This document shows, in pieces, positions 22,639 through 40,057 of a DNA stretch of 64,000 bases. Every line of letters starts with the position of its first letter. The first letter of the stretch is position 1. Below the pieces are notes generated by a model. It had not been told where the DNA came from. It saw only the letters and a program-made list of their open reading frames with translations, and searched no databases. The DNA is from Streptococcus pyogenes. Its GTDB lineage: Bacteria > Bacillota > Bacilli > Lactobacillales > Streptococcaceae. Location of the stretch: assembly GCF_002055535.1 (NCBI RefSeq), contig NZ_LN831034.1:1364001-1428000 (forward strand), in the 5' to 3' direction. A program made the position numbers and the translations under genes.

Positions 22639-23805
22639 TTAGTTTAGTTGTATAACACTTTCTCCAGTTAATTCTTCCCAGCGTTTTATAATGACATCTA
22701 CATATTTTGGGTCATATTCCATTAATCTAGCGTGACGACCATTTGACTCACAAGCAATTAACGTTGTCCCAGAGCCACCAAACAAATCAAGGACAATGTC
22801 GCTTCCCTTTGTGTTGTTTTTGATTTGGTAATCAAAAAGTCCGACAGGTTTCATTGTTGGATGAACGCCATTTCATTGAGGTTTCTCATAATCAATAACT
22901 GTTGTTTGCTTTCTGTCTGAAGCCCACAAGTGACCAGCGCCATCTTTCCAGCCATAAAGACAAGGTTCGTGCTTCCAATGATAATCTTGGCGACCGAGAA
23001 CCATTGAGTTTTTATTCCAAATTAAGCATTGACGTACTGTCCAACCGATATCAAAACAAGCACCTCTAAAATTATAGCCTTCTGAATCAGCATGCCAAAT
23101 ATAAAAAACAGCGCCTGGCTTCATAACTTCATTTGCAGAACTAAAAGCATTAACCAAGAACTGTCTAAAACTGTCATTATCCATACTGTCGTTTTTTATA
23201 GTTAAACTATCTTTTGTTTTACCCTCATAAGCCACGTTGTATGGTGGGTCTGTAAGTAGTAAATCAGCTAATTCTCCATTCATAAGTTTTTTAACATCGG
23301 CTCCATTTGTACTGTCGCCGCACATCAACTTGTGACTACCAAGTTGATAAATGTCACCAAGTTTTGACTTTGGCTCATCTGGCACAGTCTCTGTAAAATC
23401 GTCTAAATCTTTTTCATCTTCGATTAAATCATCTAAATTATCTAAAACGTCAAATCCAAAAGCAGACATATCGAGGTCTAAAATGTCGTTTAATTCTTCG
23501 TTTAACAAATCTAAATCCCAAACCGCAATCTCACCAACTTTATTGTCAGCAAGTCTGAACGCTTTAATTTGCTCTTCAGATAAGTCATCTGCGACAATAA
23601 CAGGAACTGTTTCTAGCCCTAATTTTTGGGCTGCTTTATAACGAGTGTGGCCGTTTACGATTTCGCCGTTTTTATCAACGACAATAGGCACTTTAAAACC
23701 AAACTCTTTAATAGATTCAGCAACTGGTCCAACCGCCTCATCATTGTTTCTAGGGTTATTTTTATAAGGTGTTATTTCACTTAATTTTTTGTCCACAAAC
23801 TCCAT
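22639..23805 (-). pseudogene. ParB-domain DNA methyltransferase, interrupted by TGA
   Basis: The first part (310 codons) has a ParB/sulfiredoxin-like N-terminus (G-H-T-R-Y-K-A-A-Q-K-L-G, residues about 50-60) and the catalytic T-D-P-P-Y-N-V motif IV near residue 195. The frame then hits TGA at 22873-22875, in Y-E-K-P-Q-[stop]-N-G-V-H-P-T-M-K-P-V. Beyond the stop the frame continues with the SAM-binding motif I, D-L-F-G-G-S-G-T-T, to 22639. Motif IV before motif I is the beta class order. A single CGA (Arg) to TGA change would restore a 388-residue enzyme. Without readthrough the product lacks the SAM site. Confidence 0.85.
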
Positions 23806-23825
23806 GTTTTATTCCTTTTTTACAT

Positions 23826-23853
23826 AATAAAAAGTCACCACAATGTGATGACT
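23826..23853 (-). terminator. Intrinsic terminator of the structured RNA unit
   Basis: On the minus strand AGTCATCAC and GTGGTGACT pair (one T-G) around an ATT loop, followed by TTTTTATTATG. It lies between the structured gene-free region and the methyltransferase start at 23805, and so defines the 3' end of a noncoding transcript. Confidence 0.8.
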
Positions 23854-24382
23854 AATTGGTTAACCATAGATAAATAGCAAATGAATGCTAAGCCTATTGC
23901 CTACCCCATTCTGGGACACTTCTATTTATCGAACAGGAACAGTCGGAATCGAACCGACTTGCAACCGTTGTCCCTGCTAACCACAAGCAAGGTTGCGACC
24001 CTTGGTTTTGGACTTGCGGTTAATATGTCGGTTGGCACTGTCTTGTCCAACCTTGACATCGACTTAGCGCTGGTACGCATTGTCAAGAGGCATTGCTAAG
24101 TCTTAATCATTAACACCGAACCCAGATTGCGTATTCTCCTCAAGGGAACGCCAATGTCAAATAAGGGTGTTAATTCACGGCGGACATCGCAAAGTTCCGT
24201 GATTCTTTTTGCTTTGATTACATTCCGCAATGTCACAGCGTGTAATCTCTGGGTGATTGAGACGGCAGGATTCGAACCTGCACGTCCCACATACCATAAA
24301 ATAACAAGTTTGATCGTAGTTAAAGTTGGCGACTAAATAAAATAGTCAGTAGTTAAAAGGTTATCTCTTCTTGCTATTTTGA
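23830..24382 (-). ncRNA. Candidate large structured noncoding RNA (about 550 nt)
   Basis: A stretch of roughly 620 bases without a plausible gene, bounded by an extended -10 promoter (24390-24398) and a terminator (23826-23853). Inverted repeats visible in order: 23869-23877/23922-23930 (9 bp); T-arm hairpin 23942-23958; 23961-23966/23991-23996; 24025-24059 hairpin (11 bp, small bulge); 24061-24068/24095-24102 (8 bp); 24110-24117/24166-24173 (8 bp); 24175-24180/24197-24202; 24216-24222/24241-24247 (7 bp); T-arm hairpin 24258-24289. Such density is far above chance. Size, phage setting and T-loops recall ROOL or GOLLD ornate RNAs of Lactobacillales phages, but identity is not tested. Confidence 0.65.
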
Positions 24383-24389
24383 TAATACT

Positions 24390-24398
24390 ATAATAACA
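24390..24398 (-). promoter_or_regulatory. Extended -10 promoter for the structured RNA
   Basis: On the minus strand TG-T-TATTAT (24398 to 24390) is an extended -10 element, 40 bases after the ArpU stop. A -35 is weak (GTTTAT-like at about 24412-24417), as is common with an extended -10. Transcription would begin near 24382. Confidence 0.45.
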
Positions 24399-24438
24399 TG
24401 TAAAAATATGTATAAACTATCTTATTACTGTATAAAAA

Positions 24439-24873
24439 CTAGCTAAAAACTCCTTCCTCAACAAGCAACACACCCTCTCTGTACAGCTCTGCAAAAGATA
24501 ACAAAGCAATGTCAAGTGTATCATAGTAAAAGCTCTCTGACATACACAATTCTGTATAAATAACCTTATCTGCCTTTTTATAAGGCGCTAAGTATTTGTC
24601 ATACAAAATCCTGCGTCTCTCTGGCTCTAGTATCATACTGACGGCTTGCTCAATCGCATCCAGCTCTTGTTCTGCTGACACACGGTTGAGCGCTAGTCTC
24701 TCAACAGGCTTGCTTGGCGTTCCATACGGTTGTCTTGGCTCAAAGGAATAAGTGGCTGTCACTTTTTGAGTATCTACATCATTAGCTATCCTTCGCCAGC
24801 GTGGATACTCTCTCAATTTACGCTTGGCATTAGATTTTGTTTTTTGGATATCAATCTCTGGAAAAAACGTCAT
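24439..24873 (-). CDS. ArpU-family late transcription regulator
   Basis: A 144-residue basic protein resembling ArpU-type regulators: an N-terminal I-D-I-Q-K-T-K-S-N-A-K-R-K-L-R-E-Y segment, a central helix with E-Q-E-L-D-A-I-E-Q-A, and a C-terminal sigma-region-4-like helix-turn-helix (K-A-D-K-V-I-Y-T-E-L-C-M-S-E-S-F-Y-Y-D). These proteins switch on late genes. Position between the early block and packaging genes supports this. The Shine-Dalgarno is an unusual run of G (TGGGGGGGC). Confidence 0.8.
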   Translation of the reverse strand: MTFFPEIDIQKTKSNAKRKLREYPRWRRIANDVDTQKVTATYSFEPRQPYGTPSKPVERLALNRVSAEQELDAIEQAVSMILEPERRRILYDKYLAPYKKADKVIYTELCMSESFYYDTLDIALLSFAELYREGVLLVEEGVFS

Positions 24874-39697: not shown

Positions 39698-39897
39698 AGC
39701 ACTCCCAAGGAGTGCTCAGAACGCAGACAAACTCAGTTTTAGGCTCAAAAAGCATGAACAGCTCTGCTGATTTGACATCCAATTTCCTATTTCTGCGTGT
39801 GGAGTGAGCCAAAACAGATGTTTTTCGTTGTGGTAAAAGTGGCGTCAATGTTAATGTTGACGCCACTTGGCATTTTTGAGCCTAGGATCTCAAAAAT
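39698..39897. other. Three perfect hairpins after ntdp
   Basis: AGCACTCC/GGAGTGCT (39698-39716); a very strong AAGTGGCGTCAA/TTGACGCCACTT (39837-39868, 12 bp, loop TGTTAATG); ATTTTTGAG/CTCAAAAAT (39872-39897, 9 bp). The last pair may serve as terminators for ntdp or mark the edge of a decayed insertion element. No gene is seen in 39700-40050. Confidence 0.55.
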
Positions 39898-40057
39898 AAG
39901 GCATGGAATTCCAAAGAAAGTCGCTGCCTTAAGCACTACCTAAGGAAAGTATCAAAAAATACTAAGTTTAGTAGCGAGGAAATCTCCGACGAAAGAGAGT
40001 ACTCACTACTTTTTCTTTGCGTTAAAGTAGAAGTGTCTTGTTAAGTCGCAAAGTCTT

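Follow-up and report, generated by a model that had tools for sequence, protein, structure and literature searches.

In a prophage of Streptococcus pyogenes we identified a long, gene-free RNA unit, which we read, with a probability of roughly 0.78, as a phage RNA built of exchangeable modules, some of which would mimic the partner RNAs of HEPN toxins (Abi_2 and DUF3644) and serve as stand-in antitoxins. The unit lies within the 64,000 nt that we analyzed (contig NZ_LN831034.1, positions 1,364,001 to 1,428,000; hereafter the window, whose own numbering is used throughout). Our sequence comparisons show that one of its modules, module E, is homologous to the leader RNAs of Abi_2 genes and that another, the 3' module, is homologous to an RNA partnering DUF3644 genes. 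They also show that the matches are specific in position and that modules are exchanged and lost between phages. If this reading is correct, one phage RNA probably disarms several suicide-type RNase defences at once.

A structured RNA unit between the arpU-like and ParB-methylase genes

The unit occupies about 24398-23830 on the minus strand, between an arpU-like gene (24439-24873, minus) and a gene with ParB_N and N6_N4_Mtase domains (22873-23805, minus), in keeping with the original prediction, which had placed it between a late regulator and packaging/methyltransferase genes. The name "arpU-like" is borrowed from the gene at the same position in phage LYGO9; the 144-aa protein itself matches no Pfam family at E≤0.001. 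The prediction that the unit is free of genes stands, as only chance open reading frames of 40-72 aa and no plausible gene were found in 23830-24398. Five of these frames were compared with 82 other elements, and each was kept (non-identical, at least 90% of its length without a stop) in only 1 to 7 of them, so that a conserved reading frame, the finding that was to have refuted the RNA, is ruled out as an explanation. The predicted structure was likewise found: the minimum free energy of the minus strand was -179.2 against -146.0 for shuffled sequences (z = -4.34, with 0 of 20 shuffles as low). Since the plus strand also gave a z of -3.81, the strand is not fixed by folding energy alone, and it was assigned from the promoter, the terminator, the T-arms and the homologous RNAs. 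Where at least nine inverted repeats of 6-11 bp had been claimed, we counted 19 pairs of 6-14 nt with arms at most 60 nt apart, three of them palindromes, in a count made without a shuffle control. The modules and signals of the chain are as follows, in the direction of transcription:

24387..24416, minus: sigma-70-like promoter, about TTTATA/TATACA, spacing 18/16, TATAGT; immediately after the arpU-like gene
24298..24380, minus: 5' domain A (closing pair AAAATAGCAAG / CTTGTTATTTT); 88-96% identical to relatives where they align
24258..24289, minus: tRNA-like hairpin 1, a 7-bp acceptor-like stem and a T-arm, GCAGG-TTCGAAT-CCTGC; tRNA model 19 bits
24216..24247, minus: hairpin module B, inverted repeat; a host CRISPR spacer matches 24206-24241 at 94%
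24175..24202, minus: hairpin module C, inverted repeat
24109..24174, minus: module D, closed by ATTAACACC/GGTGTTAAT
24060..24110, minus: module E, almost a copy of a hairpin from an Abi_2 leader; resembles the abiF motif
24026..24059, minus: hairpin module F, fold and inverted repeat
23977..24025, minus: hairpin module G, TTAACCGCAAG...CTTGTGGTTA
23934..23976, minus: tRNA-like hairpin 2, CAGGGACA / TGTTCCTG stem and T-arm
23865..23934, minus: 3' module, homologous in shortened form to the RNA partnering DUF3644; covariance model R1 30.3 bits, E 2.4e-5
23833..23853, minus: intrinsic terminator, then TTTTTATT

The terminator is where it had been predicted. The extended -10 promoter claimed for the other end stands in part: a promoter-like site is present at 24416-24387 and TG-T-TATTAT can be read by eye at about 24398, and the minus-strand scan flagged no extended -10 there. 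A similar A/T-rich stretch near AGTATTATC is found again in relatives. As the scan of the region returned 7 promoter-like sites against 3.7 expected, a promoter-like site by itself proves little.

The T-loop hairpins of the original prediction correspond to the two tRNA-like hairpins with a T-arm. Longer tRNA-like forms of hairpin 1 occur in four relatives (L114, L116, L117 and L127; tRNA model 31-47 bits), and some relatives carry a complete tRNA-Ser at the position of hairpin 2. Immediately 5' of the 3' module comes a hairpin with acceptor and T-arm, for which the best T-arm had 5/5 stem pairs in the 60 elements listed and the acceptor stem 7/7 pairs in 34 of the 60, although both arms were chosen as best by script, so that these counts are a consistency check only. 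Neither ARAGORN nor the tRNA covariance model (threshold 29; best score 19 bits) places a tRNA gene in 23815-24398.

No Rfam family matched the unit at its gathering score. The proposed assignment to the ROOL/GOLLD class therefore failed: GOLLD, ROOL, HEARO and OLE gave no match at gathering score in the window (for GOLLD, 150 bits) and were absent from the matches at E≤10 in 23700-24500. Low-score matches to DUF2815, twister-P3, BtsR1, sX4, CRISPR-DR54, PVT1_3 and mir-263 were taken as chance. What had been offered as the alternative, a family of its own, fits an RNA that lies outside Rfam.

We could assign a partner to two of the eight modules (A to G and the 3' module), namely module E and the 3' module. 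Modules A, B, C, D, F and G had no match at E<0.01 in the leaders of 156 Abi_2 loci. DNA searches of 197 Streptococcus genomes, in which a minority of the matched places were inspected one by one, returned for these six modules prophage-type copies, a CRISPR spacer and one match (G425) within a coding gene, which was put down to chance.

Module E is homologous to the leaders of Abi_2 genes

Over 51 nt, module E (24110-24060) shares 94% identity with the leader of L220, an Abi_2 gene of the AbiF/AbiD type (E 2e-16), and cellular hairpins homologous to it do stand upstream of Abi_2 genes. In the matching leaders, the gene is preceded by promoter-like sites together with a hairpin that in most cases has a U-run. 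In a set of 70 Abi_2 loci, all 75 plus-strand matches to phage elements fell within positions -350..+30. We then obtained 79 plus-strand matches at E<0.01 in 156 Abi_2 loci, which are part of the places found, using 83 phage elements, which are redundant. All 79 lie in gene leaders: 77 within -250..0 of the Pfam start, and two in the leader of L373, at least 44 nt before its ATG (at -243). The controls gave 5 minus-strand matches and 1-4 matches per shuffled replicate, and single 18-nt matches are for this reason weak. Matches were found in 11 of the 156 loci, and those of at least 30 nt (20 of the 79) come from five loci (L220, L226, L227, L242 and L243), the rest being short. They fall into four leader types, of which I and II have long matches and III and IV short ones; type III is common to four cellular leaders, and type IV is confined to pneumococcal phages, where it lies 3' of the core. 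Abi_2 genes are present in 63 of the 197 Streptococcus genomes, and their leaders (L212-L281) are very diverse hairpins, most of them unmatched by the phage elements compared.

The leader of L373, from another bacterial family, has a different stem and the same loop as the phage modules. In class I, the pair count, which is favourable but small (12 sequences, 10 distinct), gave 99.1% paired, and the compensatory changes amount to two pairs, both contributed by L373, with 8 of 500 shuffles as high. The alignment of the second leader type (A4) did not bring its stems into register.

Module E also has the consensus interior of the abiF RNA family (RF03085), GCCUCU..AC.AUGC, but on a different stem, and the family model scores the window at 20.3 bits, short of its cut-off of 37. 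Among 22 phage genomes, three were matched, inside the element, at 20.3-30.1 bits (E 3.6e-5, 6.5e-4 and 0.008), none over the cut-off, and six of the 14 controls also gave genome matches below it at E≤10. A search of the 197 Streptococcus genomes, under stricter filters that lose weak matches, gave two matches, both of them prophage copies of the element, one without the 3' module. There is no Abi_2 gene beside the window RNA, nor anywhere in its own genome at E≤1e-10.

The 3' module is homologous to an RNA that partners DUF3644 genes

A pattern search of 395 Lactobacillales genomes matched 21, some by chance, and revealed a stand-alone RNA of about 90 nt with the same core as the 3' module. 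In three regions this RNA stands tail-to-tail with the gene for a DUF3644 + EC042_2821 protein, which is matched by the PADLOC models of PDC-S19, a candidate defence. The aligned DUF3644 proteins share the motif RN(x)STH, and DUF3644 is listed as a HEPN family (PMC3710099). From a genome scan with these proteins we took the best 80 of 141 relatives (L128-L207) and searched them with a covariance model, R1, built from 26 stand-alone RNAs and no phage sequences. The model matched 77 of the 80 loci (21 in its training alignment, 56 outside it), on the strand opposite to the gene and at the gene's 3' end, that is, tail-to-tail; in the three that it missed (L155, L206 and L207), the contig breaks off either short of the matched gene part or no more than 80 nt beyond it. 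It also matched all 11 Streptococcus DUF3644 loci (10 genomes; L316-L326), two of which share one RNA. The hosts of this RNA, which is absent from Rfam, include Bacillota, Bifidobacterium, Treponema and Melainabacteria.

The structure of the DUF3644 RNA is supported by covariation: 12 pairs show two-sided changes against a shuffle mean of 5.6 (0 of 500 shuffles as high), with the reservation that the structure was derived from the very alignment used in the count. Each of the five helices has at least one two-sided pair, helices 2 and 4 through one sequence each, and the covariation score of the alignment is 0.306, versus 0.037-0.073 for slid versions. The covariation of stems that the original prediction had called for is thus seen in the family of the 3' module, and for module E on few sequences.

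In phages, R1 matched 21 of 32 phage or prophage sources (part of the phage loci collected), the window included, each at the 3' module, and gave no match in the other 11. The 3' module is the only window match listed for R1 at E≤1, and it belongs to the DUF3644-partner RNAs in a shortened form, as the phage version is without two features of the cellular form, namely helix 2 and a portion of helix 3. A hairpin of the module carries a two-sided change (CCU/AGG) in L004. At the same locus of an S. suis phage, R1 scored 24.8 bits, and in another genome it gave 30.9 bits for a prophage RNA close to a lysin-like gene. The window RNA has no DUF3644 gene placed tail-to-tail with it, and its own genome (G000) has none at E≤1e-10.

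Some DUF3644-type RNAs appear to be orphans, the fetched region having no DUF3644 gene (L099, L102 with two copies, L104 and L105); in L105, the RNA has next to it a fragment of 13 residues (E 3.3) that may be a remnant. A similar core occurs beside phage-like genes in four regions of other Lactobacillales (L077, L078, L107 and L108), with a T-arm in L077. R1 gave 15.7 bits (E 0.16) in L078 and L108 and no match in L077 and L107. Streptococcus satellite phages, too, carry DUF3644; in the one examined (L415 1417-2471) the RNA and the integrase adjoin. The satellite probably uses its DUF3644 to defend itself against other phages. Four strains have both a DUF3644 satellite and a prophage mimic found by R1 (ERR085022, UT_4231_KK, UT-5345 and GB00901), and in two other strains with such a satellite R1 finds no mimic in the prophage elements (L124 and L418).

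Modules are exchanged between phages, and GOLLD occurs at the same locus

The region 23806-24438 is 100% identical in the S. pyogenes phages Javan447, Javan476 and Javan492. Searching more widely, blastn returned 100 phage records at E≤1e-3, all from Streptococcus, the weakest of which have about 39 nt in common with the query, within the 3' module; an exact 20-base pattern taken from this module occurs in 57 viral stretches. The ends of the element are conserved and its middle is a mosaic, in which modules have been exchanged and lost between phages, and its length from the 5' block to the 3' module ranges from about 160 nt to about 1 kb. Two further prophages of the same genome carry the element with different middles. 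Plasmids were rejected as a source of modules: among 72,556 plasmid records, only two match at E≤1, one from S. agalactiae (34% of the query in four pieces, 6e-26) and one weak 33-nt match.

The hint at GOLLD, wrong for the window, holds for the locus. Among 47 phage records, part of the related phage loci collected, 14 contain true matches to GOLLD (RF02032; 255-283 bits, cut-off 150). Its position was mapped in four of the 14, and in the two mapped fully (L005 and L127) it lies inside the arpU-to-packaging element. The order in L127 is 5' domain, tRNA-like hairpin, GOLLD, tRNA-Ser, module G, T-arm, a class III Abi-leader copy, T-arms and terminator, with no 3' module in the element. In L327 and L328, GOLLD begins farther 3', about 0.55 kb past the 3' module, and since the gap holds a reading frame of up to 99 aa, a single transcript with GOLLD cannot be asserted there.

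Probable counter-defence by antitoxin mimicry and its alternatives

As the phage RNA copies partner RNAs of both kinds without their toxins, it is best read as counter-defence by antitoxin mimicry, and since its own genome has neither Abi_2 nor DUF3644 at E≤1e-10, it is not a toxin-antitoxin pair in cis. We suggest that the RNA is transcribed from the promoter behind the arpU-like gene and that the tRNA-like hairpins are where it is cut or capped, possibly through RNase P and RNase Z, for which these hairpins may be processing sites or decoys; RNase P cleaves acceptor/T-arm minihelices. The modules would then bind toxins in trans as stand-in antitoxins, sparing the infection an end in abortive suicide, and the phage would retain modules against the toxin types that it meets. 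In C. difficile, the AbiF RNA is reported to bind and neutralise its toxin in trans (PMC12373285), and we infer by analogy with AbiF that the DUF3644 RNA may also be an antitoxin. Lacking helix 2 and part of helix 3, the phage 3' module might bind without inhibiting.

The closest precedent is pseudo-ToxI of phage PhiTE, likewise described as a noncoding RNA of phage origin that imitates the RNA antitoxin of a bacterium and counters abortive infection (Blower 2012, PMC3475682). By that account, pseudo-ToxI addresses one toxin (ToxN) with repeats of one motif, expanded in escape mutants. The window RNA, in contrast, has standing modules that would address more than one HEPN toxin type, has tRNA-like hairpins and is found in wild prophages, its role being read from sequence. 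RCd22, the AbiF RNA antitoxin of C. difficile (PMC12373285), shares with it an Abi_2/AbiF-type partner, abiF-motif hairpins and a prophage setting, and its reported position upstream of the gene is that of the cellular copies of module E. RCd22 is described as adjoining its toxin gene, however, whereas a gene of this kind is absent from the whole genome around the window RNA at E≤1e-10. GOLLD also occupies the phage locus in some relatives, near tRNAs, and its role is described as unknown (PMC12286853); it differs in having no match in the window. In the open PMC literature, DUF3644 is named, as far as titles and abstract openings go, by PMC3710099 alone, no mention of PDC-S19 was found, and no phage RNA copying toxin-partner RNAs was found besides pseudo-ToxI.

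The same homologies, of module E to L220 and the 156 Abi_2 loci and of R1 to DUF3644 loci and phages, would also be expected if the phage RNA were a trigger that competes with the toxin's own RNA and frees the toxin, the bacterial leader having been selected for displacement. A phage protein has indeed been reported to switch on translation of the AbiD1 toxin (PMC12373285). We consider this improbable, as phages keep and swap several modules, which is hard to explain if suicide results, and the ToxIN precedent, as reported, is inhibitory (PMC3475682).

It is more doubtful still that the RNA is a leader of the late operon, whose hairpins would be attenuators or antitermination signals and resemble Abi leaders through a shared terminator-like design. 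The position between a regulator and packaging genes would suit this, as would the matching Abi_2 leaders, mostly a hairpin followed by a U-run that some phage modules keep. Yet loops are conserved and not only stems and U-runs, as in L373, where the loop is kept and the stem changed. Moreover, the DUF3644 RNA faces its gene from the 3' side instead of preceding it, and shuffled elements yield only 1-4 matches. That the RNA is a GOLLD-like ornate RNA or a decayed tRNA cluster with incidental antitoxin-like stretches, as the GOLLD and true tRNAs of relatives and the tRNA-like hairpins might suggest, is very unlikely, because the window has no GOLLD or ROOL and incidental likeness would not place 79 of 79 matches in leaders or give covariance-model matches in 21 of 32 sources.

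Antitoxin mimicry would give a testable function to an unannotated phage locus, in which phages carry copies of Abi_2 leaders (two types by long matches, two by short) as well as of the DUF3644 RNA. It would also add an RNA partner family for the DUF3644 HEPN proteins, a candidate defence, and offer a way to predict the RNA-guarded defences that a phage has met. A 2025 paper in Cell reportedly traces Cas13 to origins in RNA toxin-antitoxins. More tentatively, and with the odds somewhat against it, we speculate that streptococcal and probably other Lactobacillales phages have an all-RNA counter-defence locus, a mosaic of HEPN-partner mimics and tRNA-like processing or decoy hairpins of which GOLLD is one exchangeable part. 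GOLLD, an ornate RNA, would thereby be linked to a counter-defence locus, and ornate phage RNAs may then themselves be counter-defence RNAs.

Other observations

Elsewhere in the window, Rfam matches the Streptococcus sRNA SSRC8_2 (39718-39969, 85.3 bits), which adjoins the rRNA/tRNA cluster at 40.8-46.5 kb. A match of the unit to its own genome at 1317739, outside the window, was ruled out as a chromosomal module, being a CRISPR spacer (G000:C1:1317739-1317774; L109 6740-6775) that is 94% identical over 36 nt to module B. The array has the repeat ATTTCAATCCACTCACCCATGAAGGGTGAGAC and is one that we take to be of type I-C. Judged by this spacer match, host immune memory targets the prophage RNA locus.
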